From contig WFMF01000064.1 in the NCBI GenBank assembly GCA_011033025.1, positions 186,001-250,000 on the forward strand: a stretch of DNA of 64,000 nucleotides. Direction: 5' to 3'. Numbering within the stretch: the stretch's first letter is position 1; the number at the start of each line of letters is the position of its first letter. The translations under genes were made by a program, and so were the position numbers. Of the stretch, positions 8,361 to 61,830 are shown piece after piece. This DNA comes from Beroe forskalii (Eukaryota > Ctenophora > Nuda > Beroida > Beroidae). The notes under the pieces are model-generated. The model ran no database searches and was not told the origin of the DNA. It worked only from the letters and a program-made list of their open reading frames with translations.

Positions 8361-9900
8361 TTTGCTTGGGTACCTAACTTGGAATCATTGCATTAATTCA
8401 ATACACACTTCTAAAAGTAAAACATCTTAGACAACCGGCCTGTTTGAGTTCAGGAAATAAGAGGCAGTATAAAAGGGAATTAAACAAGATTTCGCGGAAA
8501 TCTATTTCAAAATATAACATCTACAGGCAGGCCATGACAAATGAAAGTACTATTGAGGCAGGCCTTAAACTTGTTTTGTTTATCTGAATTCATTCATCTT
8601 GAAAGGTCGAGGCATGTCTAAAGCTGGAACAACGGAAAATGAATAAAAAAGAAACAAAAATGGACCTTTTAATACGACAAAAGTGCATGGAAAAATTATG
8701 ATTGTTCTTTAAATAATTAAATACCGATCAGGAAACAGGAAACTCTGAAACGAAAGCCCAAAACCGAAACATAAAACCAGCGATGCTGTTAATTGAGTCA
8801 TAGTCTTAACTGCTGACGAGAAATAGAGCTATGCTTGTGTATTGTGTAACTGTAATAAATATATGAATGTAACTAAGTGTTTGAAAGTAAAGTACTAAGC
8901 ACCCTGTACAAGACTCAAGCAAATATCGTCAACAGTTTCAAAGCCGAGACAAAGATCGCAAAAAATGAAACCTGGAATGAACGAAACAATTGGGCGAGTG
9001 TAATTCGTAATATCAAATGACAGATGTTTCTGTCATTAAACGGTTGACAGGAAATTCAGGGGAAACCTGTGAGGTGCTGCTGAGACACGAATATGCGAGT
9101 GTTAGGGCTGTCAACGCCACGAGATAAGTACCGGCTTCATATAGCAGAAAGAACACACCCTAGATGAGACAAGGTGCTCCGGCCCATTACAAATCGAATG
9201 ATAAACTTGTTAACGAGTGGGAATGATGAAATCAGAGCTCTACAATTTGCCCAGATCATCCCTGACATCTCCCAGAATTTCACTTTCACATGTTATAATG
9301 AGCTAATTTCCCGTGATGCGTCACACCAGTCATCACACCCTGTAATTCAATATAGCTGACTTCAACAAGTGTTAGTGAGAACTGCAGGCACTTGCCAATG
9401 CGAGACATTACATTATGCATATTCATAATGTTATTTCAATTATTTCTTTCGCTATGATCGGGATAATATATAGATAAGACTTGTGAAGGGAATTTTAGTT
9501 TATTGTCCGAATCTTGGCTCTTCGGTGTGAATTTGCTTGCAGTTGCAATCATTGCCATTGTCAGTTGTAGTGTTTGAAAATGAAAATATGTGTCATATTT
9601 TATTATTTTCAATCTATCACTATGGAATAGCCGCGCCAATTGGGTCCATTTTGGGATATCTCCTTAGGGGTGTATCCGGCATGGGGTGACTAGACCATAG
9701 ACGAGGGTCTAAACTTTCTTATGGACTCAATCAGCTTAGTTTCATTATGAAAAACCGATGAAAACGTCAGAAGGTTCTATCAGATATTAAAAACGGGATG
9801 TATTTTCATTTAATTTTATTGATTGTAATGATTTACTAGAAGTAGAAGTAGTCACGGCGGAGGGAATTTTAGTGATTGTTACTCCGAGAAATATAACTAT
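8361..9900. other. Intergenic, upstream of serpin B
   Basis: This is A/T-rich sequence and should hold the serpin B promoter. I recognise no TATA box at a convincing distance on the minus strand and no coding exon on either strand. Confidence 0.5.
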
Positions 9901-29413: not shown

Positions 29414-29689
29414 TCCGTTTAGTAAGGGTACGACTGTAACCCCCTGTGAACTAAATAGTTAAGTAGGTCTGAGAACGTTTTTCGGTAGTTCATAGTCCCC
29501 AGATTCACCAAAAAAAAGATCACCGGATTCCGAGTTGGGGAAACCCCTTTTTTGGACCCCTTTTCTCCCGAATTGGGGCAAAAACTTCGACTGTCAATAT
29601 CTCAGCATCTGATTGAGATACAGACCACTTCGTTGTACCAAACTATGCAGGATGAGCACATCATAGGCGGCGGAGCATAGTTTCAAAGT

Positions 29690-30110
29690 CGTAAACCCCT
29701 TAGTTTTGGAGTTATGGACGAAAAACCTCTTTTTAGCCCTACGCGTAACCCCAAAATTGCCCTTTTTAATAAATAGAATCTGAAGGACCTAGAGAACTCA
29801 ACGAGGACACCAATCTATGCAGAATCGTCACATTATGAGGGGTAGAACATGGTTTCAAAGTCCTAACCCCTTTCGTTTCAGAGTTATGGACGAAAAACCT
29901 CTTTTTAGCCCTACACGTAGCCCCAAAATTGCCCTGATTTAATATATAAAATCTGAAGGTCGTAGAGAACTGAACGAGGACTCTAGCCTATGCAGAATCA
30001 TCACATTATGGGGGGTATAACATGGTTTCAAAGTCCTAACCCCTTTCGTTTCAGTTATGGACGAAAAAACCCTTTTTAGCCCTACGTGTAACCCCAAAAT
30101 TGCCCCTATT
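29690..30110. repeat. 173-bp tandem repeat in the left inverted repeat of the foldback element
   Basis: The marker ATGGACGAAAAACC recurs at 29714, 29886 and 30059, giving a period of 172-173 bp. The complementary array in the other inverted repeat has one more copy. Confidence 0.85.
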
Positions 30111-30849
30111 GAATAAATAAAATCGGAAGGTCGTTACAGAGAACTGAACGAGTTAATATAATTACAAATTCTTTATAGATTGAAAATCTGAAATCGAAAG
30201 CATTTGAAAAACTGGACGATGATGCTCGGTGGTATATGACTCTAGGTCGGGGGACTCTAGGTCAGGGGACTCTGAGTTTGAGGAGCCAGGATCAGGCAGT
30301 TGGAAGCAAGAATGGTGGTGGAAGCCATATACTTGATCTAGAAGCGGGCCTCAGCAGCATTGGAGTCAGCAGCATCAGCAGGGTGGCAGTGAGGTTTGGC
30401 AAGGGAGTGAAAGATTGATGGTGTAGAACTAGAATCGTCCAGTACACTTGCAGCTCCACTTGATACACCTCCAAGTTTGTCTTCCACGTTTTAAGGACTT
30501 TCTATCTCTAGAGGAGCCTTGAGCTCAAGAGGAGGGATTTGAAAGTGAAGGTTCTTCCTTTGATGATCTTGATCATGGAAGTGTCTGCAGAGGAGGGGGG
30601 GGGGGGGTTGGCTGGCGGATCAGGGTGGCCGTGGAGAGGGGGAGGGTCTGCGTTGAGGACAGCGTTGGCAGTGACACGATTTCCAAAAGTAGAGCAGTAG
30701 ACATAGTGTCTGCATAATCATATGCATGCAGTCGTGCTCGCATGACCCTCTCGTATAATGAATCCGCTCTGATGACATCTGGGATATGAGTCCATTATCA
30801 GGGTTAACCGAGAGAGTCACCTTATAAGTGAAGAGCTTTAGATAGTGTA

Positions 30850-31341: not shown

Positions 31342-31559
31342 TTCGCATTGTTTGTTTCTAGCAAAAGATGAAATGTTCAAAATATGTGTGATTAATTATT
31401 ATTTTTAAACTTCCTTTGCATTCGTTTAGGAAAAGGTTTGATTATTCTTTGTAAATTTTACATTTACATTATTGAAGAATATTATGGTGTGTTCATTGGA
31501 TTTTATCCCTATGTTATATAACCAAGCACAATTTTGGAGTTAAAATTTTGGAGTTAAAA

Positions 31560-32100
31560 TAGGTTTTTCGTCCATAACTCTGAAACGAAAGGGGTTAGGA
31601 CTTTGAAACCATGTTCTACCCCCATAATGTGATGATTCTGCATAGCCTAGAGTGCTCGTTCAGTTTTCTACGACCTTCAGATTTTATTTATTAGATAGGG
31701 GCAATTTTGGGGTAACACATAGGGCTAAAAATGGGTTTTTCGTCCATAACTCTGGAACGAAAGGGGTAAGGACTTTGAAACCATGTTCTACCCCCCATAA
31801 TGTGATGATTCAGCATAGGCTAGAGTCCTCGTTCAGTTCTCTACGACCTTCAGATTTTATATATTAAATAGGGGCAATTTTGGGGCTACGTGTAGGGCCA
31901 AAAAGGGGTTTTTCGTCCATAACTCTGAAACGAAAGGGGTGAGGACTTTGAAACCATGTTCTACCCCCCATAATGTGATGATTCTGCATAGATTACTGTC
32001 CTCGTTGAGTTCTCTAGGTCCTTCAGATTCTATTTATTAAAAAGGGCAATTTTGGGGTTACGCGTAGGGCTAAAAAGAGGTTTTTCGTCCATAACTCCAA
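31560..32100. repeat. 173-bp tandem repeat in the right inverted repeat of the foldback element
   Basis: The marker TTTTTCGTCCATAACTC recurs near 31564, 31736, 31909 and 32082, again about 173 bp apart. It is the complement of the array at 29690-30110. Confidence 0.85.
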
Positions 32101-33140
32101 AACTAAGGGGTTTACGACTTTGAAACTATGCTCCGCCGCCTATGATGTGCTCATCCTGCATAGTTTGGTATAACGAAGTGGTCTGTATCTCAATCAGATG
32201 CTGAGATATTGACAGTCGAAGTTTTTGCCCCAATTCGGGAGAAAAGGGGTCCAAAAAAGGGGTTTCCCCAACTCGGAATCCGGTGATCTTTTTTTTGGTG
32301 AATATGGGGACTATGAACTACCGAAAAACGTTCTCAGACCTACTTAACTATTTAGTTCACAGGGGGTTACAGTCCAGAGTACATACAACCCTTACTAGTT
32401 CCCCGATTAATTATTATTCACTCAATGATTTGTCTTCATAAAGTTTGTAATATTACGTTTAATCTTACTTATAAAGTAAAATCACACGTGAATAATGTTT
32501 GTGCCGCCGTATACAATTAAATTTGAGCTTGCCAAGAAAATATCAAGAGAAACGAAGGCTAGGTAAGTAAGACTAAGTTGCGCCCTTGCTATGGATACAA
32601 GTATTCTGCACGTGCAGATTATGATCAGTTCTATGCGAGTGCTTTCTGCTACGTTGTTGACTGCTGCATTGTAGCGTTTGAAAGAATGTCAATGACTTGT
32701 CTTGCATTTGAAATTCAAGATCGGTAGATAAGGGACGGGTATGGCTGGCATCGTGGTAGCTATCTGTATGTCGGTCGATTTAAATCAATGCTGAGTTGAT
32801 GATAACGAAAAATGTGAATTTAAAGCAATTTAAGAAATTGACCAAAAGCAAAATCAAATTGAATCGAATTTGGACATATTAGCACATTGCGAATTTAGAA
32901 GACTGCTCTTGGCGTGAATCAATGCTTTATTCAACATTCAGTATGAGTACGATACTCGGTTTTAATTTTCAGATTCAGCTTCATCATACAAGAGCAAATC
33001 ATAACAATCAAAACTTGCCCGGTCCAGCATTACTAAAAGTAACCCACGAACAATGTTCAATTTTGCTCCTTCATAAACTATTATTGAGCTTATTATTTGG
33101 TTTTGTATCATCTAGCAGGCCCAACGGGCTTTTCTAGTCT

Positions 33141-42077: not shown

Positions 42078-44252
42078 TCATCTGCAGTTCATCGAGAGTT
42101 TGCTGCTTGCTGTGTGAGTTTTCTCTCGTTTCTTCTTCTCCTGGTGAGCATCACTCTCGAACACCTTCCAGAGTCGTAACGACTCGTCGGCACCCAGAGA
42201 CACGACAGTGCTGCCGTCAGGGGACATGGACAGCTGGAGAACACGGTCCTGAAGAGTTGACATTACAACAAGGGCCAGGAAGGTTCTAGAATTAGATCGA
42301 TTTATCTCAAATTAAAAACAACCGTAGGGACCATTTAGAATTTCTTGTACCTCATGCAACGAAGGTTGCGGAGACTTCGTTTTCAGCTCAGACGAAACAC
42401 TATGACCATGTTTACATTCTTTTGTGCAATGAATTGCATAGTGTATAAACAACTGTCAACTATACAACCTACCTAACGCTTGCAACTAAGTTAGAGAAAC
42501 AACAAAACACTAAAACGAGATTCCAAAGAGCACAAAACACTTAGACCAGATTTACAAGAGCAGAAAACAGTAAAACACGGTCCTGGTGTCCAGTGAGTTC
42601 CGCTAGTCGTGTCATGGTAGGGTACTTCCAGAGAGTCAGCTGGTTCTGTGAGTAGCCGTGCCCTGTGATCAGCTCCTTGTTGTGACGGGACCACAGAATC
42701 GCACTCACCTGCAGGAGTAGTTTGTGGGTTTAGTAGGTAGGTTTGATAGGTCCATAACAGGTGAATTATAGAACAGTTACCTTAGGGGGCTTCAACCCTG
42801 AAACACTTTGTGGATGCCCCATCTGTAAGTGTAAGTGTAGGCTCACTTTTTAATTTTAGCTAGGTTTTGAGCGCTCGTGAGAGCTCAAAACCTATAAAAA
42901 TCTATCCCAATGGGTCTCAGATCCTCAGAACCCCCGTCCACTGCCAATTATAAATCATTAAAAGCAAGACAGAGTTGAGCGAACTAACCTGTGAGCCAGT
43001 GTCCGTGGCGTTTTGGAGTCTGCCACTGGCAGCATTCCAAAAGCAGATCTGCCGATCAGCCGTCCCTCCCCCAGTTGCGAGCAGATTCTTAGAACTTGGA
43101 CACCACGCTGCAATGGAACTTTTATTACAACGATTTCACTTAAATTTTAAAGTTTCAAAACATCGTGCTTCAATTCCAAAAGGTAAGTAATAGCCTTGCA
43201 CATATGTGTTGATGTATAAATTACCTAGTGCTTTGACAGCAGCCGTGTGTTCTATAAGGGTGTGCAAGGGGGCTGAGTCTCCCCCGGACCAAATATTGAC
43301 TTTGTTGTCATTCCCACCGGACGCTAAGTAGTTGCCATCCGAACTGTATGCTAACCCACATACCTGAGAATGGTAACATTGTGGCAACATATAAACAATG
43401 TGACAACAAAGTAATAACGATTCATTACCATACTGATGCTTTGCATACATAGCAAGTACCTTCTTATTAGGTCCTAATACCATGACAACAAATAGCGATT
43501 GTCATGACACTTACACGCTGTTATCAATTATCATGGTGTATTGACCTTTGCAAACGCAGCGTATTAAGAAGCGCTTGGGTCCTTTTTGTGGCGCGTGATA
43601 GCGCGCACAAATATGCTTTATGTGCAAAAACGCAGTAAACTTAAAGCACATTTGTCACGCGCAACAAAAGTAATAACCAGGATCTAACGCGGCGAAATCC
43701 GCCACATTTGGACAGTAAGCGACACTACACTTGTCATGACTTCATGACATTTGACAACAGCACATTACCTCCATATCGTGACCAGTCAGTGTTGCTGTGT
43801 GGTGAGTCGCAATCCTCACGTCGTGGTGAAATATCTGGCTACTCCTACTCCCACTGTGATGATATATTATTATTGTAGTTATTGATAACATCATAATCAT
43901 CAATTTTGGAATTCGAAACTAATTATTAAGTTATTTCTTGTTTCAATGCGCCAGTTTCCCTGGTATTCTTATGAAAAAGGACAAAATATGAGAGTTTAAA
44001 AGCAAGGTTCGGACAATAATCAGATTGAAGTTACGTCGTTGAATTTCACCAAATACCGTGAATCAGTAGCTACCTGGACAGTATGAACTCGTTCCAGGCC
44101 AGTGAGCTGACTCGGTCGGTGTGTCCGGACATGACCCTGACAACAGCCTGCTTCTCCACATTCCACAGCGATATCTTGTTGTCGTGATCACCCACTGCCA
44201 GGATCTCCGGTACAGTCGGGGACCACTGCACTGACGCTACCTGACTGGTGTG
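42078..44252 (-). CDS. CDC20: CDC20/Fizzy, 3' part (six coding exons, WD40 propeller)
   Basis: Exons on the minus strand: 44252-44074, 43853-43769, 43363-43225, 43107-42989, 42708-42577 and 42248-42078. They continue the WD40 beta-propeller of the APC/C co-activator that delivers mitotic substrates for ubiquitination. Family landmarks in order: [108 protein letters not shown] and [13 protein letters not shown]. Phases agree at every junction except the last. There a canonical GT (CGT/GTTTTA) gives a repeated Asp-Arg, or a non-canonical GA donor gives the expected text. The protein ends KLSMNCR, so the usual C-terminal Ile-Arg that binds APC3 reads Cys-Arg. All other introns are GT-AG and 117-405 bp long. 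Identification is secure; the last junction is not. Confidence 0.93.
42238..42583 (-). other. Last CDC20 intron bounded by a 12-bp direct repeat
   Basis: AACACGGTCCTG (plus strand) occurs at both exon edges, at 42239-42250 and 42573-42584. It reads CAGGACCGTGTT on the coding strand and includes both splice junctions. The intron interior has further AGTGTTTTGTGCTC-type short repeats between 42490 and 42575. Confidence 0.75.
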
Positions 44253-44255
44253 CTG

Positions 44256-46372
44256 AGGGGGTTGTCAGGGCTGAGGGGTGTTGACAGGTATAAGTGTTGT
44301 CAGGGCTAAGGGGTGTTGTCAGGGCTAGGAGTGTTGTCAGGGCTGAGGGGTGTTATCAGGGCTGAGTGGTGTTGTCAGGGCTAGGTGTTGTCAGGGCTGA
44401 GGAGTGTTGTCAGGGCTGAGGGGTGTTATCAGGGCGGAGGGGTGTTGTCAGGGCTAGGTGTTGTCAGGGCTGAGGGGTGTTATCAGGGCTGAGGGGTGTT
44501 GTCAGGGCTAGGTGTTGTCAGGGCTGAGGGGTGTTGTCAAGGCTAAGGGGTGTTGTCAGGGCTAGGTGTTGTCATGGCTGAGGGGTGTTGTAAGGACTGA
44601 GGAGTGTTGTCAGTGCTGAGGGGGTGTTGTCAGGGCTGAGGAGTGTTGTCAAGGCTGAGGCGTGTTGTCAGGGCTGAGGGGTGTTGTCAGGGCTGAGGGT
44701 GTTGTCAGGGCTGAGGGGTGTTGTCATGGCGGAGGGGTGTTGTCAGGGCTGAGGGGTGTTGTCATGTCTGAGGGGTGTTGTCAGGGCTTAGGGGTGTTGA
44801 AAGGACTGAGGAGTGTTGTCAGGGCTGAGAAGTGTTGTCAGGGCTGAGGGGTGTTGACAGGGCTGCGGGGCGTTGCCAGGGCTGAGGGGTGTTGTCAGGG
44901 CTGAGGGGTGTTGTCAGGGCTGAGGGGTGTTGTCATGGCTGAGGGTGTTGTCAGGGCTGAGGGGTGTTGTCAGTGCTGAGGGGTGTTGACAGGGCTGAGG
45001 AGTGTTGTCAGGGCTGAGGGGTGTTGTCAGGGCTGAGGGGTGTTGTCAGGGCTGAGGGGGTGTTGACAGGGCTGCGGGGCGTTGTCAGGGCTGAGGGGGT
45101 GTTGCCAGGGCTGAGGGGTGTTGTCAGGGCTGAGGGGTGTTGTCAGGGCTGAGGAGTGTTGTCAGTGCTGAGGGGTGTTGACAGGGCTGAGGAGTGTTGT
45201 CAGGGCTGAGGGGTGTTGTCAGGGCTGAGGGGTGTTGTCAGGGCTGAAGGGTGTTGGCAGGGCTGAGGACGTTGTCAGTGCTGAGGGGTGTTGTCAGGGC
45301 TTAGGGGTGTTGAAAGGACTGAGGAGTGTTGAAAGGACTGAGGAGTGTTGTCAGGGCTGAGGGGTGTTTACAGGGCTGAGGGTGTTGTCATAGGCTGAGG
45401 GGTGTTGTCAGGACTGAGGGTGTTTGTCAGGCTGAGGGGTGTTGTCAGGGCTGAGGGGTGTTGTCAGGGCTGAGGGGTGTTGTCAGGGCTGAGGGGTGTT
45501 GTCAGGGCTGAGGGGTGTTGTCAGTGCTAAGGGGTGTTGTAAAGACTGAGGGGTGTTGTCAGGGCTGAGGGGTGTTGTCATGGCTGAGGGTGTTGTCAGG
45601 GCTGAGGGGTGTTGTCAGTGCTGAGGGGTGTTGACAGGGCTGAGGAGTGTTGTCAGGGCTGAGGGGTGTTGTCAGGGCTGAGGGGTGTTGTCAGGGCTGA
45701 GGGGGTGTTGACAGGGCTGAGGGGCGTTGTCAGGGCTGAGGGGGTGTTGCCAGGGCTGAGGGGTGTTGTCAGGGCTGAGGGGTGTTGTCAGGGCTGAGGG
45801 GTGTTGTCAGGGCTGAGGAGTGTTGTCAGTGCTGAGGGGTGTTGACAGGGCTGAGGAGTGTTGTCAGGGCTGAGGGGTGTTGTCAGGGCTGAGGGGTGTT
45901 GGCAGGGCTGAGGACGTTGTCAGTGCTGAGGGGTGTTGTCAGGGCTTAGGGGTGTTGAAAGGACTGAGGAGTGTTGAAAGGACTGAGGAGTGTTGTCAGG
46001 GCTGAGGGGTGTTTACAGGGCTGAGGGGTGTTTACAGGGCTGAGGGGTGTTTACAGGGCTGAGGGGTGTTGTCATGGCTGAGGGGGTGTTGTCAGGGCTG
46101 AGGGGTGTTGTCAGGGCTGAGGGGGTGTTGTCAGGGCTGAGGGGGTGTTGTCAGGGCTGAGGGGTGTTGTCAGGGCTGAGGGGTGTTGTCAGGGCTGAGG
46201 GGTGTTGTCAGTGCTAAGGGGTGTTGTAAGGACTGAGGGGTGTTGTCAGGGCTGCGGGGCGTTGTCAGGGCTGAGGGGTGTTGTCAGGGCTGAGGGGTGT
46301 TGTCAGTGCTGAGGGGTGTTGTCAGGGCTGAGGGGTGTTGTCAGGGCTGAGGGGTGTTGTCAGGACCGGGTG
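44256..46372 (-). repeat. 20-bp minisatellite carrying the 3' splice-site sequence
   Basis: The unit on the plus strand is GTGTTGTCAGGGCTGAGGGG, about 105 copies by length, with 18-21-bp variants. On the coding strand each unit contains CCCCTCAG, the same bases that form the acceptor of the next CDC20 exon at 44253-44260; the real acceptor is the last member of the array. A longer period of about 645 bp is visible: the variant CATGGCTGAGGGTG at 44934 recurs at 45579 with matching neighbours. Confidence 0.9.
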
Positions 46373-46436
46373 TTCTCAGGGGATCAGGTGAAATGATCGC
46401 AGTAGCAGAAGAATGTCACAAAGGTCAGAGTGATAC

Positions 46437-49400
46437 CTGCCACTGTTGCAATTCGCATAGCTCCATGATATCACCACTGACTATGTAACCCTTACCTCGC
46501 ATAGCTCCATGATATCACCACTGACATTGTAACCCTTACCTCGCATAGTTCCATGATATCACCACTGACATTGTAACCCTAACCTCGCATAGTTCCATGA
46601 TATCACCACTGACTATGTAACCCTTACCTCGCATAGCTCCATGATATCACCACTGACATTGTAACCCTTACCTCGCAAAGTTCCATAATATCACCACTGA
46701 CATTGTAACCCTAACCTCGCATAGCTCCATGATATCACCACTGACATTGTAACCCTAACCTCGCATAGTTCCATGATATCACCACTGACATTGTAACCCT
46801 AACCTCGCATAGCTCCATGATATCACCACTGACATTGTAACCCTTACCTCGCATAGCTCCATGATATCGCCACTGACATTGTAACCCTAACCTCGCATAG
46901 CTCCATGATATCACCACTGACATTGTAACCCTTACCTCGCATAGCTCCATGATATCGCCACTGACATTGTAACCCTTACCTCGCATAGCTCCATGATATC
47001 ACCACTGACATTGTAACCCTAACCTCGCATAGCTCCATGATATCGCCACTGACATTGTAACCCTAACCTCGCATAGCTCCATGATATCGCCACTATGTAA
47101 CCCTAACCTCGCATAGTTCCATGATATCACCACTGACATTGTAACCCTAACCTCGCATAGCTCCATGATATCACCACTGACATTGTAACCCTAACCTCGC
47201 ATAGCTCCATGATATCGCCACTATGTAACCCTTACCTCGCATAGTTCCATGATATCACCACTGACTATGTAACCCAAACCTCGCATAGCTCCATGATATC
47301 GCCACTGACATTGTAACCCTAACCTCGCATAGCTCCATGATATCGCCACTATGTAACCCTAACCCCGCATAGTTCCATGATATCACCACTGACTATGTAA
47401 CCCTAACCTCGCATAGCTCCATGATATCGCCACTGACATTGTAACCCTAACCTCGCATAGCTCCATGATATCACCACTGACATTGTAACCCTTACCTCGC
47501 ATAGTTCCATGATATCACCACTGACATTGTAACCCTAACCTCGCATAGCTCCATGATATCACCACTGACATTGTAACGCTAACCTCGCATAGCTCCATGA
47601 TATCACCACTGACATTGTAACCCTAACCTCGCATAGCTCCATGATATCACCACTGACATTGTAACCCTAACCTCGCATAGTTCCATGATATCACCACTGA
47701 CATTGTAACCCTAACCTCGCATAGTTCCATAATATCACCACTGACTATGTAACCCTAACCTCGCATAGCTCCATGATATCACCACTGACATTGTAACCCT
47801 TACCTCGCATAGCTCCATGATATCACCACTGACATTGTAACCCTTACCTCGCAAAGTTCCATAATATCACCACTGACATTGTAACCCTAACCTCGCATAG
47901 CTCCATGATATCGCCACTATGTAACCCTAACCTCGCATAGTTCCATGATATCACCACTGACTATGTAACCCTTACCTCGCATAGCTCCATGATATCACCA
48001 CTGACATTGTAACCCTAACCTCGCATAGTTCCATGATATCACCACTGACTATGTAACCCTTACCTCGCATAGCTCCATGATATCACCACTGACATTGTAA
48101 CCCTTACCTCGCAAAGTTCCATAATATCACCACTGACATTGTAACCCTAACCTCGCATAGTTCCATGATATCACCACTGACATTGTAACCCTAACCTCGC
48201 ATAGCTCCATGATATCGCCACTGACATTGTAACTATCTCGCATAGCTCCATGATATCGCCACTATGTAACCCTAACCTCGCATAGCTCCATGATATCACC
48301 ACTGACATTGTAACCCTAACCTCGCATAGCTCCATGATATCACCACTGACATTGTAACCCTCACCTCGCATAGCTCCATGATATCGCCACTGACTATGTA
48401 ATCCCTTACCTCGCATAGCTCCATGATATCGCCACTATGTAACCCTAACCTCGCATAGCTCCATGATATCGCCACTGACTATGTAACGCTAACCTCGCAT
48501 AGCTCCATGATATCACCACTGACTATGTAACCCTAACCTCGCATAGCTCCATGATATCACCACTGACATTGTAACCCTTACCTCGCATAGTTCCATGATA
48601 TCACCACTGACATTGTAACCCTTACCTCGCAAAGTTCCATAATATCACCACTGACATTGTAACCCTAACCTCGCATAGTTCCATGATATCACCACTGACA
48701 TTGTAACCCTAACCTCGCATAGCTCCATGATATCACCACTGACTATGTAACCCTAACCTCGCATAGTTCCATGATATCACCACTGACATTGTCACCCTTA
48801 CCTCGCAAAGTTCCATAATATCACCACTGACATTGTAACCCTAACCTCGCATAGTTCCATGATATCACCACTGACATTGTAACCCTAACCTCGCATAGTT
48901 CCATGATATCACCACTGACATTGTAACCCTTACCTCGCATAGCTCCATGATATCACCACTGACTATGTAACCCTAACCTCGCATAGCACCATGATATCAC
49001 CACTGACATTGTAACCCTAACCTCGCATAGTTCCATGATATCACCACTGACATTGTAACCCTAACCTCGCATAGTTCCATGATATCACCACTGACATTGT
49101 ATCCCTCACCTCGCATAGCTCCATGATATCACCACTGACATTGTAACCCTAACCTCGCATAGCTCCATGATATCACCACTGACTATGTAACCCTAACCTC
49201 GCATAGCTCCATGATATCACCACTGACATTGTAACCCTTACCTCGCATAGTTCCATGATATCACCACTGACATTGTAACCCTTACCTCGCAAAGTTCCAT
49301 AATATCACCACTGACATTGTAACCCTAACCTCGCATAGTTCCATGATATCACCACTGACATTGTAACCCTAACCTCGCATAGCTCCATGATATCACCACT

Positions 49401-50228
49401 GACTATGTAACCCTAACCTCGCATAGCTCCATAATATCACCACTGACATTGTAACCCTAACCTCGCATAGTTCCATGATATCACCACTGACATTGTAACC
49501 CTAACCTCGCATAGTTCCATGATATCACCACTGACATTGTAACCCTTACCTCGCATAGCTCCATGATATCACCACTGACTATGTAACCCTAACCTCGCAT
49601 AGCTCCATGATATCACCACTGACATTGTAACCCTAACCTCGCATAGCTCCATGATATCACCACTGACATTGTAACCCTAACCTCGCATAGCTCCATGATA
49701 TCACCACTGACTATGTAACCCTAACCTCGCATAGCTCCATGATATCACCACTGACATTGTAACCCTTACCTCGCATAGTTCCATGATATCACCACTGACA
49801 TTGTAACCCTTACCTCGCAAAGTTCCATAATATCACCACTGACATTGTAACCCTAACCTCGCATAGTTCCATGATATCACCACTGACATTGTAACCCTAA
49901 CCTCGCATAGCTCCATGATATCACCACTGACTATGTAACCCTAACCTCGCATAGCTCCATAATATCACCACTGACATTGTAACCCTAACCTCGCATAGTT
50001 CCATGATATCACCACTGACATTGTAACCCTAACCTCGCATAGTTCCATGATATCACCACTGACTATGTAACCCTAACCTCGCATAGCTCCATGATATCGC
50101 CACTGACATTGTAACCCTAACCTCGCATAGCTCCATGATATCACCACTGACATTGTAACCCTAACCTCGCTTAGCTCCATGATATCACCACTGATTATGT
50201 AATCCCAAACCTCGCATAGTTCCATGAT
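46437..50228 (-). repeat. 44-bp minisatellite, distal block (about 86 copies)
   Basis: On the coding strand the unit is AGTGGTGATATCATGGAGC, then TATGCGAG, then GTTAGGGTTACAATGTC or GTAAGGGTTACAATGTC. A 40-bp variant lacks TGAC. CATTGT and CTATGT forms alternate. Since 44 is not a multiple of 3, the open frames here are artefacts cycling through three readings of the same text. Long stretches of variant order recur, for example around 48540-48700 and 49200-49360, showing higher-order duplication. Confidence 0.95.
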
Positions 50229-50373
50229 TTTCGTACTATACATACTTTGCTTTTGCAGCGTTTTTAGTGCTCTTATCTATAACCGATAAACTGCTATATA
50301 CTGCTAAGTACGACTGCATTACTGTGTGCACATACTACCGTGTATTTTAATACCACACATTGTACACAATACC

Positions 50374-51666
50374 ATGGTTAATCTGAGCAAGGGTCGTCTG
50401 CAAAATGACAGTGAACAGGTCAAAATCATCGTGGGTAAACTTATAGATAAGGCTGATCTATCTATCAGACCCGTCATATCAAGTTTTGACTGTTTTCAGA
50501 CTCGTTCAGTGAATATCCAGCGTATTAATCAGTTCACAGTTGTACTACTTGAAAATTGTGCTGAGTTCCTTGGAATCCCTCTTGCTGACGAAAAAGGCTT
50601 CAAGTTGTTCACCAAACCATCTCTCGTGAGCCGAATCTTTCTTGGTTTAATGGCGCTGATGCCGGCCAAATGCGGGGAATGTGGGGATGGGTATGTGATC
50701 GACATTGAACCCGAGATTTCGCCTTTCTTCAGCTGCTTCAGGTGTTTCAGGGGTGCTCATCATTGTGAAAGGAACAGGGCTCTTCATCAGGCACTCTCAG
50801 TGTTGGACACACCATCGGGTTTTGTGTGGCTCTGTGATGAGTGCCATGGTATTGTGGACCCCATTGATCCCAGGAAACAGAGATCCCGTCACACGTCAGG
50901 GACTCAATCTTCAGTGGAGAGTCAGGCAATGGACCAATCATCTGACATCTCCAACATCGCCCTCTCTGGCAGTGGAGCACTTTCCTCTACTCAGATACCC
51001 CATCGTCCTCCAGATTTCCCCACTCCAGATGAAGCTACCTCTAGCACAGTTCCAGTGGAGCCTCAGCCAGCTGCTCAGGTCTGTCAGAGATACCTGAAAT
51101 GGAACTGCCCGCACGGAATGAGTGGGAAGAAGAAGATCAACGGGCAGATTTGTCCTCTAACTCATCCCAGGATCTGCAATCAGTTTAGAGCGTCTGGATC
51201 TAAAGGGACGAGAGGATGTAAGAAAGGCAAAAACTGTGCTTTCTTCCATCCTGATATCTGCAGTACTTTGTCACAGAGAGGTTCTTGCCCTAAGAAGAAA
51301 TGTAAAGAGTTTCACCCCCGTTCTGCCAACAGGAAAAGTGAAGAGGGACCACGGACTCTCGATCAACCTCGTGACAGGCAAAAGAGTACAGGGCAGGCGA
51401 CCGACTCTAGTGATTTTTTAGGGCTGCGAGACCTGGTCGTAGGGATGGCGGCCAAGTTGGAATCGCTGGAGAAGAAAGTGGAGCAGGGGGCGTCAGTGTC
51501 AGGGTTTCCGACATCCGCTCACCCAGCTACAGCTCCACCTCATCCACAACAACATCCTCCGGTGATGGGCTACCCGGCTCCAGTAACCCACCCCATGATG
51601 CCCATGTCCCTAGGGATGTCCAGGCTGGCGCATCAAAATCCCTTCTCTCATCCCTCCTACTACTGA
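50374..51666 (+). CDS. LINE ORF1 protein, Cys-rich zinc-finger type
   Basis: An intact frame of 430 aa from an ATG in excellent context (ACCATGG); an upstream in-frame extension to 50326 has no ATG. The first third contains a PHD-like pattern (CGECGDGY, CFRCFRGAHHC, WLCDECHG). The middle has three CCCH-type fingers in a row (CQRYLKWNC..H, CNQFRASGS..C..C..H, CSTLSQRGSCPKKKCKEFH). The C terminus is Pro/His-rich after a short coiled-coil-like segment (AAKLESLEKKVEQG). ORF1 proteins of this kind bind element RNA as a chaperone; that role is inferred. The stop overlaps the probable start of ORF2. Confidence 0.8.
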   Translation: MVNLSKGRLQNDSEQVKIIVGKLIDKADLSIRPVISSFDCFQTRSVNIQRINQFTVVLLENCAEFLGIPLADEKGFKLFTKPSLVSRIFLGLMALMPAKCGECGDGYVIDIEPEISPFFSCFRCFRGAHHCERNRALHQALSVLDTPSGFVWLCDECHGIVDPIDPRKQRSRHTSGTQSSVESQAMDQSSDISNIALSGSGALSSTQIPHRPPDFPTPDEATSSTVPVEPQPAAQVCQRYLKWNCPHGMSGKKKINGQICPLTHPRICNQFRASGSKGTRGCKKGKNCAFFHPDICSTLSQRGSCPKKKCKEFHPRSANRKSEEGPRTLDQPRDRQKSTGQATDSSDFLGLRDLVVGMAAKLESLEKKVEQGASVSGFPTSAHPATAPPHPQQHPPVMGYPAPVTHPMMPMSLGMSRLAHQNPFSHPSYY

Positions 51667-54630
51667 ATGCTAGGAGCCTCAACCCGTCTGCTCAGAGTGT
51701 CGGCAGATGGAAGCTCAATGACCTCATTGGGCACGTGGAGGAGAAACGACAGACTGGACAACTGTTTCCCTTCATCGCTATCACCGAATCTTGGCTGAAG
51801 TCATACATCACAGACGCTCAACTCCAGATTCCAGGTTACTGTGTATCGCGAAGTGATCGCGGTAAGAGGAAAGGTGGCGGGGTTTTGCTCTACTCACTAT
51901 CGTCACTTCCTATCTCCGTGTCGGAGACCTTTGACGACGGTACCTGTCAGGCTCTCTGCAATGTTTACCCATCTGCTAAGCTTTTGTAGCAGTAGTCTAC
52001 AGGCCGCCTGATGCGAGTCTTTCCAGTTTCTCTAACCTTCTGGATCACCTCAGGCACACCATTGACACTCTTCCAGGAAGAGATTACGACATCTTCATAA
52101 CAGGTGACTTCAACCTACCGCAGATTGATTGGGAGTCCTTCAGATGCTGAGTGGGGGAACGTCTGAATCGAACTCATCGGCTCAGTGTCTGTTAAATTTC
52201 ATGTCGATTCACCTGCTCAGCCAAATGGTAACTGTACCAACTAGAGGAAACAACATCCTGGACCTGGTACTTTGTAACAACGACCGATTAGTTTCAGATG
52301 TCAAAGCTGAACCAACTGAAATATCGGACCATGATGCAGTCAGCGTTCTACTGTCCTTCACTCCTGGTACTATGGAGGATCACCAGGCTTCATATCTCCG
52401 TGAAATGAACTTTCGGTCTCTGGACTTCAGCAACGCAGATTTCGAGAAACTGAATGGAATGTTCACAGATGTTAATTGGAAGGAAATGCGAGCAACAGGC
52501 ACATTCGAGGAATTCCCTACCAAGCTCAATCAAGCAATTCTTGATGTGTGCCTGAAGAATGTCCCTCGTAAACGACCTCCAACTGGCAAGCCAAAGCTTT
52601 ACAATTCGCTCAGAAGGAAGAAGTCAAAGCTCAAAAGCCGTCTCTCTGCTGCTAAGTGCTCGGGTAACTCGGCTCGAATCAAGCAACTTGAAGATGAGAT
52701 AGGGTTGGTATGCTACGATATCAAGGAGGCTATAGTTAAGCACCTCGATCAAGGTGAGAAACGCGCTGTTGAGAGGATAAAAACCAACCCGAAATATTTC
52801 TACTCCTACGCCAAGTCCTTTTCAAAGGTGAAGCAGAGCATAACGACTCTTCTGAATAGTGACAAGGAACTGGTAATTGACCGGAAGGAACTCGCTAACA
52901 TTCTGCAGCAACAGTTTTGCTCAGTGTTCAGCGATCCAAACTGCCCGGACAAATCTGCCCCTTCCTTCACTGTGCCACCTCTCACCAGCCACGACACTGA
53001 GCTTGTGCTGACGTTGGAGAGCATAGAGGATGCCATAGCCGAGATAAAGCTTGACTCTGCCCCAGGTCCCGATGGATTGCCTGCTGTCCTACTGAAGAAG
53101 TGTGCATCCAGTCTCAGCATCCCGATTCATCTACTTTGGTCTGAGTCCATGTCATCAGGCGTTGTGCCCAGTTTTTACAAGAAAGGGCTTGTCACGCCAC
53201 TTTTCAAGAAAGGCAGCAGGTGTGAAGCGGTTAACTACAGACCTGTTACCCTGACTTCTCATGTCGTCAAAGTTTATGAAAGGGTGATCAGAAAACATAT
53301 GGTGGAACATCTCGAAACCAACAATCTTCTGACTGAAAAACAGCACGGTTTCAGATCTAACAGAAGCTGTCTGACACAAATGCTAGATCACTTTGACGAT
53401 ATATTTGAAGGGTTCACTCGTGGTGAAGACACGGACTCCATCTATCTAGACTACGCTAAGGCATTCGATAAAGTCGACTTGAATCTCCTTATCAAGAAAC
53501 TGAAGAGGTACGGGTTCCATCCAAAGCTCATCCATTGGATCCAGTCCTTCCTACATGATCGTGAGCAAGTTGTAGTTCTTGATGGCGTGCACTCTGATAG
53601 TGCCTTAGTTCTCAGCGGTGTACCTCAAGGAAGTGTTCTAGGACCGCTGCTATTCATCCTCTTCATCAACGATTTGGAACAGGTGGTGCTTTCATCGAAT
53701 GTGAGTTTCTTTGCAGATGGAACGAGAGTCTCCAAGCAGATTGGTTGTTATGATGACTGTAGGCTACTGCAAGATGATTTGTTCAGAATTCTTGACTGGT
53801 CACGTGCCAATAACATGAAACTTCATGAACAAAAGTTCGAGCTACTAAATCACCTCCATAATAAAAGTTCTTCCCTGGAGCTTCCTTTCTTTGCCGAAGC
53901 GTTGCATACAAGGTATCCAATGAGGAAGTGCTTTATCCTGTCGAGAATGTCCGAGACCTCGGTGTACAGGTAGCAAGTGATCTTAGCTGGTCTAGACATA
54001 GCGAGTATGGTAACCAAGGCAAGGAGTACGCTGTCTTGGGTGTTCAGTGTCTTTAAAACTCGCGACAGCTTTGTGATGACCACTATGTACAAGTCACTGG
54101 TTAGAAGTACACTCGAATACTGCTGTCCATTGTGGAACCCAAGCAAGGTGTGTGATATCCAGCTGATTGAAGGAGTCCAAAGGACCTTCACTAGCCGGGT
54201 ATATGGCCTACGTCATCTGAACTACTGGGAGAGACTGAAGAAGCTTAACTTGATGTCACTGCAACGCAGACGGGAAAGGTACATCATTCTGATGATGTGG
54301 AAGATTTTCCATAAAGTTGTTCCTAACTGCTGCAACATCCAGTTCAACATGTCATCAAGGTATGGTGCAGTAGCAGCGATTCCTCCCTTGTTTAGGTCAA
54401 GCTCATTGGCCAATCAGACTCTCCATGACAGATCCTTTGCAGTCTTAGGTCGAAAACTGTGGAACAAAGTACCGAGCACTATTAAAGCAGTCGATAATTT
54501 TGACACGTTTAAATCGTACTTATCGAACTACATTGCTTTGATACCGGACACCCCTCCGGTCGCCGGGTACTGCTGCAACTGGTCTAACTCTCTGGTAGAC
54601 TACTCACCAGCGCGGTGGTCGGAACTCTGA
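51660..54630 (+). pseudogene. LINE ORF2, endonuclease and reverse transcriptase, broken
   Basis: The AP-endonuclease is recognisable as AITESWL, RKGGGVLLY, VVYRPPDAS, ITGDFNLPQIDW and ISDHDAV, but spread over three frames with shifts near 51985 and 52140. The reverse transcriptase (frame 52129-53973) has YRPVTLTSHVVKVYERVI, YLDYAKAFDKVD and GVPQGSVLGPLLF. The catalytic motif near 53710 reads FADG and not FADD, so one catalytic Asp is lost. A third shift near 53965 leads to the C-terminal part (53977-54630) with RSTLEYCCPLWNP and PDTPPVAGY. The element is dead on several counts. Confidence 0.88.
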
Positions 54631-54676
54631 TGACCCTACGACTCAACGAGAACTCAACCAAGTTACCAAGTTAGTT

Positions 54677-57600
54677 ATGATATCGCCACTGAAATTGTAA
54701 CCCTAACCTCGCATAGTTCCATGATATCACCACTGACATTGTAACCCTCACCTCGCATAGTTCCATGATATCACCACTGACATTGTAACCCTCACCTCGC
54801 ATAGTTCCATGATATCACCACTGACATTGTAACCCTTACCTCGCATAGTTCCATGATATCACCTTTGACTATGTAATCCCTAACCTCGCATAGTTCCATG
54901 ATATCGCCACTGACTATGTAATCCCTTACCTCGCATAGCTCCATGATATCACCACTGACTATGTAATCCCTTACCTCGCAAAGTTCCATAATATCACCAC
55001 TGACTATGTAATCCCTTACCTCGCATAGTTCCATGATATCACCACTGACATTGTAACCCTAACCTCGCATAGCTCCATGATATCACCACTGACATTGTAA
55101 CCCTAACCTCGCATAGCTCCATGATATCACCACTGACTATGTAACCCTAACCTCGCATAGCTCCATGATATCACCACTGACTATGTAACCCTAACCTCGC
55201 ATAGTTCCATGATATCACCACTGACTATGTCACCCTAACCTCGCATAGCTCCATGATATCACCACTGACATTGTAACCCTTACCTCGCATAGCTCCATGA
55301 TATCGCCACTGACATTGTAACCCTCACCTCGCATAGCTCCATGATATCACCACTGACATTGTAACCCTAACCTCGCATAGCTCCATGATATCACCACTGA
55401 CATTGTAACCCTAACCTCGCATAGCTCCATGATATCACCACTGACTATGTAACCCTAACCTCGCATAGTTCCATGATATCACCACTGACATTGTAACCCT
55501 AACCTCGCATAGCTCCATGATATCACCACTGACTATGTAACCCTAACCTCGCATAGTTCCATGATATCACCACTGACATTGTAACCCTAACCTCGCATAG
55601 CTCCATGATATCGCCACTATGTAACCCTAACCTCGCATAGTTCCATAATATCACCACTGACTATGTAACCCTAACCTCGCATAGCTCCATAATATCACCA
55701 CTGACATTGTAACCCTAACCTCGCAAAGTTCCATAATATCACCACTGACATTGTAACCCTAACCTCGCATAGTTCCATGATATCACCACTGACATTGTAA
55801 CCCCTAATAGTTCCATGATATCACCACTGACTATGTAACCCTAACCTCGCATAGTTCCATGATATCACCACTGACATTGTAACCCTCACCTCATAGCTCA
55901 GCGATATCACCACTGACATTGTAACCCTCACCTCGCATAGTTCCATGATATCACCACTGACTATGTAATCCCTTACCTCGCAAAGCTCCATGATATCACC
56001 ACTGAAGTACTGACTATGTAACCCTCGCATAGCTCCATGATATCGCCACTATGTAACCCTAACCTCGCATAGCTCCATGATATCACCACTGACATTGTAA
56101 CCCTAACCTCGCATAGTTCCATGATATCACCACTGACTATGTAACCGTAACCTCGCATAGCTCCATGATATCGCCACTGACATTGTAACCCTAACCTCGC
56201 ATAGCTCCATGATATCACCACTGACATTGTAACCCTTACCTCGCATAGTTCCATGATATCACCACTGACATTGTAACCCTTACCTCGCATAGCTCCATGA
56301 TATCACCACTGACATTGTAACCCTAACCTCGCATAGTTCCATGATATCACCACTGACATTGTAACCTTAACCTCGCATAGCTCCATGATATCGCCACTGA
56401 CATTGTAACTATCTCGCATAGCTCCATGATATCGCCACTATGTAACCCTAACCTCGCATAGCTCCATGATATCACCACTGACATTGTAACCCTAACCTCG
56501 CATAGCTCCATGATGTCACCACTGACATTGTAATCCTTACCTCGCATAGCTCCATGATATCACCACTGACATTGTAACCCTAACCTCGCATAGCTCCATG
56601 ATATCACCACTGACATTGTAACCCTAACCTCGCATAGCTCCATGATATCACCACTGACATTGTAACCCTAACCTCGCATAGCTCCATGATATCACCACTG
56701 ACATTGTAACCCTAACCTCGCATAGTTCCATGATATCACTACTGACATTGTAACCCTAACCTCGCATAGTTCCATGATATCACCACTGACATTGTAACCC
56801 TTACCTCGCATAGCTCCATGATATCACCACTGACATTGTAACCCTTACCTCGCATAGCTCCATGATATCGCCACTATGTAACCCTCACCTCGCATAGCTC
56901 CATGATATCACCACTGACATTGTAACCCTTACCTCGCATAGCTCCATGATATCACCACTGACATTGTAACCCTAACCTCGCATAGTTCCATGATATCACC
57001 ACTGACATTGTAACCCTAACCTCGCATAGCTCCATGATATCGCCACTGACATTGTAACTATCTCGCATAGCTCCATGATATCGCCACTATGTAACCCTAA
57101 CCTCGCATGATATCACCACTGACATTGTAACCCTAACCTCGCATAGCTCCATGATATCACCACTGACATTGTAATCCTTACCTCGCATAGCTCCATGATA
57201 TCACCACTGACTATGTAACCCTAACCTCGCATAGTTCCATGATATCGCCACTGACATTGTAACCCTTACCTCGCATAGCTCCATAATATCACCACTGACA
57301 TTGTAACCCTAACCTCGCATAGTTCCATAATATCACCACTGACATCACTACTGACATTTGTAACCCTAACCTCGCATAGCTCCATGATATCACCACTGAC
57401 TATGTAACCCTAACCTCCGCATAGCTCCATGATATCACCACTGACTGTAACCCCACCTCGCGCCAGTTCCATGATATCACCACTGACATTGTAACCCTTA
57501 CCTCGCATAGTTCCATGATATCACCACTGACATTGTAACCCTAACCTCGCATAGTTCCATGATATCACCACTGACATTGTAACCCTAACCTCGCATAGCT

Positions 57601-60600
57601 CCATGATAGCACTCCATTGAACCCCTCACCACTCCATGACCCTACCCACTGACTATGTAAACCTCGCATAGTTCCATGATATCACTGACATTGTAACCCT
57701 AACCTCGCATAGCTCCATGATATCACCACTGACATTGTAACCCCAACCTCGCATATCACCACCGACATTGTAACCCCACTGACTATAACCTCGCATAGTT
57801 CCATGATATCACCACTGACATTGTAACCCTAACCTCGCATAGCTCCATATCACCACTGACATTGTAACCACTGACACCCTAACCTCGCATAGTTCCATGA
57901 TATCACCACTGACATTGTAACCCTTACCTCGCATAGTTCCATGATATCACCACTGACATTGTAACCCTAACCTCGCATAGTTCCATGATATCACCACTGA
58001 CATTGTAACCCTAACCTCGCATAGCTCCATGATATCCACTGACTATGAATCCCATTGTTCCATACCCACTGACATTGTAACCCTAACCTCGCATAGTTCC
58101 ATGATATCACCACTGACATTGTAACCCTAACCTCATAGTTCCATGATATCACCACTGACATTGTAACCCCTAACCTCGCATAGTTCCATGATATCACCAC
58201 TGACATTGTAACCCTAACCTCGCATAGTTCCATGATATCACCACTGACATTGTAACCCTAACCTCGCATAGTTCCATGATATCACTACTGACATTGTAAC
58301 CCTAACCTCGCATAGTTCCATAATATCACCACTGACATTGTAACCCTAACCTCGCATAGTTCCATGATATCAATACTCGATTGTAACCCTAACCTCGCAT
58401 AGCTCCATGATATCACCACTGACATTGTAACCCTAACCTCGCATAGCTCCATGATATCACCACTGACATTGTAACCCTAACCTCGCATAGTTCCATAATA
58501 TCACTAACATTGTAACCCCTAACCTCGCATAGCTCCATGATATCACCGCACGACATTGCCCTAACCTCGCATAGTTCCATGATATCGCCACTGACTATGG
58601 CCCTAACCTCGCATAGCTCCATGATATCACCACTGACTATGTAACCCCTAACCTCGCATAGCTACATGATATCACCACTGACATTGTAACCCTTACCTCG
58701 CATAGTTCCATGATATCACCACTGACATTGTAACCCCTTACCTCGCAAAGTTCCATAATATCACCACTGACATTGTGTAACCCCTAACCTCGCATAGTTC
58801 CATGATATCACCACTGACATTGTAACCCTAACCTCGCATAGCTCCATGATATCACCACTGACTATGTAACCCTAACCTCGCATAGCTCCATGATATCACC
58901 ACTGACATTGTAACCCTTACCTCGCATAGTTCCATGATATCACCACTGACATTGTAACCCTTACCTCGCAAAGTTCCATAATATCACCACTGACATTGTA
59001 ACCCTAACCTCGCATAGTTCCATGATATCACCACTGACATTGTAACCCTAACCTCGCATAGCTCCATGATATCACCACTGACTATGTCACCCTAACCTCG
59101 CATAGCTCCATGATATCACCACTGACATTGTAACCCTAACCTCGCATAGTTCCATGATATCACCACTGACATTGTAACCCTAACCTCGCATAGTTCCATG
59201 ATATCACCACTGACATTGTAACCCTCACCTCGCATAGCTCCATGATATCACCACTGACATTGTAACCCTAACCTCGCATAGCTCCATGATATCACCACTG
59301 ACATTGTAACCCATACTCCATGATATCATACTTCCATGATATAACCACTGACATTATCACCACTGACATTGTAACCCTCGCATAGTTCCATGATATCACC
59401 ACTGACATTGTAACCCTAACCTCGCATAGTTCCATGATATCACCACTGACATTGTAACCCTAACCTCGCATAGCTCCATGATATCACCACTGACTATGTA
59501 ACCCTAACCTCGCATAGCTCCATGATATCACCACTGACATTGTAACCCTTACCTCGCATAGTTCCATGATATCACCACTGACATTGTAACCCTTACCTCG
59601 CAAAGTTCCATAATATCACCACTGACATTGTAACCCTAACCTCGCATAGTTCCATGATATCACCACTGACATTGTAGCCCTAACCTCGCATAGCTCCATG
59701 ATATCACCACTGACTATGTAACCCTAACCTCGCATAGCTCCATAATATCACCACTGACATTGTAACCCTAACCTCGCATAGTTCCATGATATCACCACTG
59801 ACATTGTAACCCTAACCTCGCATAGTTCCATGATATCGCCACTGACATTGTAACCCTAACCTCGCATAGTTCCATGATATCACCACTGACATTGTAACCC
59901 TAACCTCGCATATCACCCTGACTATGTAACCCCTAACCTCTGCCCATGATATCACCACTGACATTGTAACCCTAACCTCGCATAGTTCCATAATATCACC
60001 ACTGACATTGTAACCCTAACCTCGCATAGTTCCATGATATCGCCACTGACATTGTAACCCTAACCTCGCATAGTTCCATGATATCACCACTGACATTGTA
60101 ACCCTCACCTCGCATAGTTCCATGATATCACCACTGACATTGTAACCCTCACCTCGCATAGTTCCATGATATCACCACTGACATTGTAACCCTTACCTCG
60201 CATAGTTCCATGATATCACCACTGACTATGTAATCCCTAACCTCGCATAGTTCCATGATATCGCCACTGACTATGTAATCCCTTACCTCGCATAGCTCCA
60301 TGATATCACCACTGACTATGTAATCCCTTACCTCGCATAGCTCCATGATATCGCCACTATGTAACCCTAACCTCGCATAGTTCCATGATATCACCACTGA
60401 CATTGTAACCCTAACCTCGCATAGTTCCATGATATCACCACTGACATTGTAACCCTAACCTCGCATAGCTCCATGATATCACCACTGACATTGTAACCCT
60501 TACCTCGCATAGCTCCATAATATCACCACTGACTATGTAACCCTAACCTCGCATAGCTCCATGATATCGCCACTGACTATGTAACCCTTACCTCGCATAG

Positions 60601-60649
60601 TTCCACTTCCATGATATCACTACTGAAGTACTGACTATGTAACACTAAC
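54677..60649 (-). repeat. 44-bp minisatellite, proximal block (about 136 copies)
   Basis: Same unit as 46437-50228. It runs without a break into the end of the CDC20 exon at 60650; the last 27 nt of that exon (codons for SGDIMELCE) are the first unit. Blocks recur, for example about 54735-54960 and 60097-60300 share the same rare variants (CTCACCTCGC, TAATCCC). Between about 57350 and 58560 and near 59320 the order is scrambled, with partial units, which could be true rearrangement or assembly noise. Confidence 0.93.
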
Positions 60650-61830
60650 CTCGCATAGCTCCATGATATCACCACTCCCTGCATTCCACAAGAAGACACT
60701 TTGGTTGAGTGCCACGCAGAGCACGTTTCCCACACTCCAGTCGAGCAGGTTGAGGTAGTAGTCGTTGTTAACGTCCGGAGCGTCCAGTACTCGCCAAGCT
60801 GTCGGGGGGATCGCACGGGCTAGAGCCTTCCGGTGCACCTGACCTCCACTCTGTGCGAACAACACCTGCGGAGGGATAGGGTTAGGAGACACTGTGTGGA
60901 AAAAGAAGTACCCTCTAACTTATGAAGACTCTCAGGGGACCACTTTCATGGGCTTCTGTCAGGAGATACACAGCCAGGGGAAGCAGGACTTGAGTAACGA
61001 GTACTTGGGGGCAGTGGGCACTGCCAAGTGCCAGAAGACGCTATCAAGTACCAACTGTTTGGGGGCAATGTCAGGGGTTGGTTACATGGCGGACATTAAC
61101 AGGAAAGGAATGTGTCGAATGAGAAAAACCAAGAAAATGAATACCTGGAGGTGTTCCATGACAATGAATTAATTTGAAATAATTCGTCAATGCTGAATAG
61201 TAAGAAAAGCTTTACCAGTACTCAGTACATCACTCTGATTTCACTCACTTTAGACTGAGGGTTGAGTGGGTTCACAGCGGGCTCGGGAGCCTTGTTTCTC
61301 ATGTTTAGGATCTTGGGTTTGTCCATTTGTAGGTTTAATTTCATGGTCTCCCTGTATCTCCTTGTTGAGGGGGATATTTTACTGTCGTCAGTCTCATCGA
61401 GCAGCTCAAAACCGGCCTCCTCAAAGTCATTGGCACGTCTCGGAGGAATGAACCTATCTCCAATCGGAGTAGTCCTTGTCGACCTGCTACCACCACACTT
61501 GTTCAGCTTCTTGGGTGTTCCTATCTTGTTTTGGTTTTTCAAGGATGAGTTCACCTTTTTCTTCGGAGTACCGTCCACATTGGTTGTTTTGTACGGCATG
61601 TTTAGGGAGAGAGAAGGACGCTTGCTCGGCGTCCTTCTGTCGCCGGAGAAGGAATCTCCGAAGGTGCTGGAAACATTGCTTTGGCTGGAGAAGGAGGCGT
61701 TGTTAGAGTTAGCTTTAGTCGAAGAAGTGCCTCCCCCTCCACCCCTCTCCAACTCTTTCCTCTGCCATCGGGGAACTAATCTGCTTGATGAGATCGGTTC
61801 GTTGAGTTTCAAATCACAATGCTTTGACAT
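60650..61830 (-). CDS. CDC20: CDC20/Fizzy, 5' part (N-terminal regulatory region and first propeller strands)
   Basis: Two coding exons, 61830-61249 (194 codons) and 60865-60650 (72 codons). With the 3' exons the protein is about 540 aa, slightly longer than most CDC20 proteins. Motifs: C-box DRFIPPR at residues 125-131 (APC/C binding) and KILNM at 173-177 (Mad2-binding position), followed by KAPE. The second exon gives WRVLDAPDVNNDYYLNLLDW and NQSVFLWNAGSGDIMELCE, conserved in CDC20. A KEN box is not present; the expected position after the C-box reads DETD. The CRY-box position reads ARAIP. The ATG is preceded directly by TTTTCCACTAG, a plausible acceptor, so a 5'UTR intron is likely and the promoter may lie outside the window. 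The long Ser/Gly-rich N terminus (GGGGGTSST) is probably disordered. Confidence 0.95.

Follow-up and report, generated by a model that had tools for sequence, protein, structure and literature searches.

The second intron of the CDC20 gene in the ctenophore Beroe forskalii, with a predicted length of 16,397 bp, consists almost entirely of a 44-bp tandem array on the donor side, a LINE retrotransposon inserted into that array, and a 19-bp tandem array on the acceptor side. The most probable explanation of the 44-bp array (a probability of about 0.85) is that it is a silent, boundary-spanning minisatellite of the kind known in amphioxus as a "mirage", and that it grew from the junction of exon 2 and intron 2.

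The CDC20 gene occupies the minus strand of the window (the whole 64,000-nt stretch of DNA that was analysed) from about 42 to 62 kb. Its 539-aa translation is a full-length WD40 CDC20 protein with conserved motif order; in a protein search, it aligned with protein P0005 over 100% of its length at 75% identity, and the comparison with human CDC20 gave an E value of 3.3e-129. The 539-aa query used for these two comparisons was built with a join (LQQWQ) that was later rejected, and the alignment of exons 2 and 3 uses the corrected join. P0005 is the closest relative found and is 85% identical over exons 2-3; CDC20 of Branchiostoma belcheri is 46% identical to that of Beroe. Exon 1 (61249-61830, minus strand; MSKHCD...NPQSK) is predicted from an open frame and from the alignment with P0005, which begins at the first residue, and intron 1 would start at 61248. 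Exon 2 (60650-60865, minus strand) matches the Pfam family WD40_CDC20-Fz at 2.3e-15, which is below the model cut-off, a cut-off set for the whole domain. The terminal codons of the exon are AGT GGT GAT ATC ATG GAG CTA TGC GAG, encoding SGDIMELCE, and are followed by GTTAGT, so that the exon ends in GAG/GTTAGT as the initial annotation had described (the slash marks a splice boundary). Exon 3 (44074-44252, minus strand) has a predicted start at HTSQ.

Another intron of this gene, intron 7 (42249-42582 of the window, minus strand), has CAGGACCGTGTT at both ends. The frame GHQ/DRVLQL, which is that of P0005, permits only GA-AG or other non-standard ends for this intron and no GT-AG pair. It resembles an intron with a short direct repeat at its boundaries, and there is a 30-bp tandem repeat near its start (42502-42576).

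The repeat unit of the donor-side array corresponds to the native exon-intron junction, a 44-nt segment (60633-60676, minus strand) comprising 27 nt of exon and 17 nt of intron. In its exonic part, the unit agrees at all 27 positions with the final 27 nt of exon 2 (60650-60676), and the base that precedes this segment differs between exon and unit. Over the whole junction (60676-60633), identity is 43/44 with the CATAG form of the unit and 41/44 with the commonest form. Exact matches to AGTGGTGATATCATGGAGCTATGCGAG occur 71 times on the minus strand of the window, all of them within 46.4-60.7 kb, and a variant with one G-to-A change occurs a further 67 times on the same strand. An exact match of 27 nt at such a copy number is beyond chance. 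A telomere-like GGTTAGGGTTA within the unit was also considered and was rejected: the native junction reads GTTAGTGTTAC, so that one difference between array and junction probably accounts for the likeness.

When anchors were counted with at most one mismatch allowed, 215 were found including the exon itself, of which 128 belong to block A and 87 to block B, leaving 214 beyond the exon. The spacing between anchors is exactly 44 in 166 of 214 cases, and these 166 units of 44 nt diverge from their consensus by 3.3-3.6%. The intronic part of block A extends over 54677-60649 (54677-60676 with the exon part), while block B covers 46453-50228 and has a final partial unit that merges into unique intron sequence; both are on the minus strand. 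The intronic array totals 9,749 bp, with the exon part and the LINE left out. These measurements bear out the earlier claim that the 27 coding nucleotides and the donor form the core of a unit filling about 9.8 kb in about 220 copies. The copy adjacent to the exon is an aberrant, divergent 58-mer whose sharing with the junction is limited to 14 nt of exon and 20 nt of intron, and this divergence counts against growth from the junction. At the opposite end of the array, the units are ordinary. In the 216-Mb assembly, the 44-bp repeat has at least 109 matches, all of them on one contig (C736) and at this locus only.

Given that the end of exon 2 is coding, and that it lies at its normal place in CDC20 relatives with SGDI-like residues, the exon is the likely source of the repeat and the 44-bp array the product. 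The residues in question are SGDIMELCE in Beroe, SGDIMELTE in P0005 and SGDILQLLQ in human CDC20. The conservation of SGDI and of the residues before it, on which the initial annotation had based the same direction, is therefore upheld.

The LINE (50229-54676, plus strand) splits the array into blocks A and B. It is flanked by a 5-bp target-site duplication, ATGAT (50224-50228 and 54677-54681), which is made of array sequence, so that the insertion must be later than the expansion. Among the best 120 of 2,286 matches to its reverse-transcriptase frame, the top matches covering at least 93% of the query are 70-78% identical. Two of these 120 carry a species name, and both are from Mnemiopsis leidyi (72% identity over 96% of the query, and 63% over 72%).

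The acceptor side of the intron has an array of its own. Beyond a unique intron remainder of about 88 bp (46365-46452, minus strand), which lies between the two arrays, a 19-bp array with acceptor-like units (44253-46364, minus strand; sense CCTGACAACACCCCTCAGC) comprises 108 units at no more than three edits. It abuts the predicted acceptor CTGACAACCCCCTCAG/CACACCAGTCAGGTAGCG, and its final unit provides the acceptor predicted for exon 3. The predicted mRNA would join ...CTATGCGAG to CACACCAGTCAG, giving the protein join MELCE-HTSQ, which aligns without a gap to MELTE-HNSQVASVRW of P0005. This alignment supports an exon 2 end at 60650 and an exon 3 start at 44252. Two other relatives, P0006 and P0007, are one residue longer than P0005 at this place, and the predicted join is thus not forced by every relative.

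Minisatellites of the TGACAACACCCC type are dispersed in this genome, being found at 44253-46364 of the window and in four of the additional stretches described below (L013, 2243-3038 and 7646-8018; L015, 3637-3704; L016, 3716-3822; L017, 2934-5345). In both CDC20 and the mitochondrial-carrier-like gene of L016, an array of this type immediately precedes a predicted acceptor, whose AG follows TGAC and a C-rich stretch. Because such arrays occur elsewhere in the genome, it is uncertain whether the 19-bp array is a purely local product of the acceptor.

The initial annotation had stated that each unit carries an exon end and a donor-like site, and GT is indeed kept at the donor place in 208 of the 215 units. 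The predicted pairing with U1 is -6.5 kcal/mol for the real donor and -6.2 for the commonest unit (136 units). In 61 of the 215 units, the donors are GAGGTAAGG and GAGGTGAGG, with predicted values of -10.1 and -10.2 kcal/mol. Since these 61 units exceed the real donor in predicted pairing, a point against use of the first donor, proximity must outweigh strength. Reading through past the first donor gives VSVT-stop, that is, four residues.

The effect of splice choice on the reading frame was examined in silico, using as donors all GAG/GT sites from the exon to 46453, those of the LINE included, and as acceptors all C[CT][CT]AG sites in the 19-bp array. The frame through exon 3 is kept by one of 224 donors, one of 102 acceptors and one of 22,848 pairs. 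Every other pair tested leads to a stop or to loss of frame, and only the outermost donor together with the outermost acceptor yields CDC20. Splicing must therefore choose the exon-proximal sites. As a general rule, the site nearer to the exon is chosen between equal splice sites. That the first donor is used is a prediction from the frame and the alignment.

According to the initial annotation, no system was known in which an exon end and its donor had been expanded in this way. This does not hold, because amphioxus mirages are described as tandem duplications of exon/intron boundaries (PMC3087553, PMC3902484), and a minisatellite in human IFI6 supplies donors (PMC4526556). Mirages are reported from Adh3 and the globins BflGb6 and BflGb9 (PMC3087553, PMC3902484), as well as from troponin C and PGBD5 (PMC3902484). 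According to these accounts, they occur at the 5' as well as the 3' boundary, many of their units include AG/GT signals, splicing does not seem to be disturbed and their length is unstable; the BflGb6 mirage has 6 and 3 units in two haplotypes (PMC3087553, PMC3902484). The CDC20 array likewise has a tandem unit that spans the predicted exon/intron boundary of a coding gene and AG/GT signals in many of its units. It differs in its ctenophore host, in its roughly 214 further copies as against the 6 and 3 units of BflGb6, and in the presence of donor-side and acceptor-side arrays in one intron. A further feature of mirages is the homogenisation of their units, with those at cluster boundaries exempt; in the CDC20 array, an aberrant unit lies beside the exon and ordinary ones at the opposite boundary. 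Among the matches listed from the open-access literature, no mirage was recognised in a ctenophore or any other non-lancelet, and the name "mirage" appears only in lancelet papers. A term search of the amphioxus huntingtin paper (PMC2206037) found neither "mirage" nor "minisatellite".

Two further systems are instructive. In the human IFI6 (6-16) minisatellite, two downstream repeat units serve as donors and three mRNA species are formed (Turri et al. 1995; PMC4526556). CDC20 shares with IFI6 a minisatellite at an exon end with repeated donors; unlike in IFI6, where several repeat donors are used, the CDC20 frame is kept in silico by the first donor only. The polyubiquitin gene UBC has a tandem array of dual-specific splice sites (PMC10809524), and there, as in CDC20, tandem AG/GT sites are in register with the repeat. 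However, the UBC monomers are coding and variably included, whereas the 44-bp unit is intronic, breaks the frame and has no pyrimidine tract before AG/GT.

Several other explanations of the intron need to be weighed. The array might lie inside the original exon and represent an internal intron or an insertion; the true end of the old exon would then fall at about 46439. The final unit at 46453 does continue in frame as SGDIMELCELQQWQ/GTATC (LQQWQ and then GT), and ELCSLGETQITSV in P0006 is equal in length to ELCELQQWQVASV. However, P0005 fits HTSQ straight after MELCE without a gap and with three of four residues identical. Moreover, the final unit, GCGAATTG, has no AG immediately before TTG, as a precise join of LQQWQ to exon 2 requires, and this makes such a join impossible. 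The LQQWQ/GTATC reading, which has a very low probability, was dropped, since P0005 has HNSQ right after MELTE and the genome has HTSQ behind a good acceptor. It is about as improbable that the array is itself a gained intron, formed by the tandem duplication of an exonic AGGT segment. In the tandem genomic duplication model, both ends of an intron are copies of one segment. The likeness to CDC20 is that the duplicated segment includes a splice-like AGGT, and the units are derived from an exon and carry AG/GT. Intron gain has been proposed in print both from mirages (PMC3087553) and by tandem genomic duplication (PMC4974935). The donor-side (44 bp) and acceptor-side (19 bp) units of the CDC20 intron are, however, unrelated. 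The acceptor CCCCTCAG/CAC, which belongs to the 19-bp unit, has no relation in sequence to the 44-bp unit, so that the intron ends do not both descend from one AGGT. A stretch of unique intron also persists between the two arrays.

Alternatively, the decoy donors might be used to regulate CDC20, either through unproductive splicing and nonsense transcripts or through dual-specific use of AG/GT as in UBC. There are about 208 donor-like sites, 61 of which have stronger predicted U1 pairing than the real donor, and the tandem dual-specific arrays of UBC are used (PMC10809524). Such a role has an equally low probability: productive donors number one in 224, the purine-rich sequence ahead of the unit's GAG/GT is a poor acceptor, and amphioxus mirages reportedly do not seem to disturb splicing (PMC3087553, PMC3902484). 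Finally, either the copy number or the array itself could be an artefact, as tandem arrays are prone to mis-assembly and a single assembly was used. This is extremely improbable, because a LINE with a matching target-site duplication sits within the array, the units vary at a few recurrent positions, and independent arrays are found in other genes.

If the array is a boundary-spanning minisatellite grown from the native junction, its history may be reconstructed in three steps. A 44-nt segment over the exon 2/intron 2 junction (27 + 17 nt) would have been duplicated in tandem. Unequal exchange or slippage, as is usual for minisatellites, would then have expanded it to about 214 further copies, and the LINE, as its target-site duplication shows, inserted into the finished array. 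A duplication spanning the donor is expected to be silent: the spliceosome would pick the exon-proximal sites and restore the original mRNA, so that expansion would meet little selection, and leakage would probably be cleared by nonsense-mediated decay. By the same logic, on the acceptor side, the 19-bp array would have been free to grow up to exon 3.

Arrays at splice junctions are also found elsewhere in the genome. Two sets of additional stretches were surveyed: seven chosen ones, of which L013-L017 are similar to the 19-bp unit and L018 and L019 are near the window, and a systematic sample from every 50th contig (18 stretches, L020-L037; 176,379 bases). At fixed cut-offs, 56 arrays were obtained: 6 in the window, where the two blocks of the CDC20 44-bp array count separately, 22 in the chosen stretches and 28 in the systematic sample. 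The open frames at the edges of all 56 were inspected by eye, and the flanking DNA was read at nine loci that stood out; as only these nine were read, some junction arrays may have escaped notice.

In the systematic sample, 5 of the 28 arrays are at junctions, four of them donor-side and one acceptor-side, with significant Pfam support for two (L033 and L032). The donor-side cases each repeat an exon end and its donor. L033 (TSP_1, 2.1e-12) shares 11 exon nt and 43 intron nt with the next copy. The first array of L020 (1384-1711) has no Pfam family and shares 39 exon nt and 22 intron nt with the next copy, and the second (1938-2164), with a Gryzun-like match at 0.17 that is below the cut-off, shares 31 exon nt and 57 intron nt. 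L035, again with no Pfam family, is the weakest of the four, as its sharing with the next copy is the shortest (9 exon nt and 8 intron nt). The junction calls in L020 and L035 are based on an open frame and splice signals. The acceptor-side case, L032 (Arm, 1.5e-13), repeats an acceptor and exon start. Among the chosen stretches, L016 has a clear donor array (Mito_carr, 2.3e-8; 38 exon nt shared), and L013 probably holds an acceptor-side array (78 bp) as well as donor-side arrays that lack Pfam support. In L013, the sharing test took another copy of the exon end and so gives no measure of local sharing. For L029, L037 and L015, no clear junction was found in the flanking DNA that was read.

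Some features of these stretches are worth recording separately. The two L020 arrays belong to consecutive exons of what appears to be one gene, the 3' end and donor of each being repeated about four times. In L013, the exon end CTCAACCTCCTTCAG/GTCAGTTGC has five occurrences, divided between two places (3440 and about 8395-8656) that are separated by 5 kb, which suggests a larger duplication on top of a local array. A 32-bp array of about 64 copies in L037 (897-2979, minus strand) begins within an open frame with zinc-finger-like Cys/His residues (CKFCGRKFAHYNQRIRHHRVC), and its unit has no clear donor. Short arrays of a similar 173-bp unit, in the manner of a dispersed satellite-like family, are present at 29637-30152 and 31556-32163 of the window and at 3759-4323 of L013.

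When four donor arrays per 176 kb are scaled to 216 Mb, a few thousand would be expected in the genome, with a very wide error. The excess of donor motifs in the 56 consensus units (CDC20 again as two blocks), scored with a weight table against dinucleotide shuffles, is not significant: 4 of 56 units have p<0.05 and 8 of 56 have p<0.1, where 5.6 are expected. Recurrence is therefore claimed here, and not enrichment. Arrays that arise at random and persist where they are silent could account equally well for these numbers. A broader proposal, which is put forward tentatively, is that splice junctions have seeded minisatellites pervasively throughout this genome. There would then be thousands of donor and acceptor arrays, with up to hundreds of copies, tolerated through exon-proximal choice. 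Junction amplification would rank among the main ways in which introns grow outside cephalochordates, with CDC20 as the extreme case.

The CDC20 array is probably a very large mirage in a phylum other than that of the lancelets, and would thus extend the phenomenon to another animal phylum. What is new here is the ctenophore host, the huge array, the 19-bp array of acceptor-like units that precedes exon 3 in the same intron and the similar arrays in other genes. With about 200 donor-like and 100 acceptor-like copies and, in silico, one productive pair, the CDC20 intron is a natural stress test of exon-proximal splice choice. Should junction arrays prove as frequent as this small sample implies, they would provide a neutral route for the growth of introns and for new intron positions.
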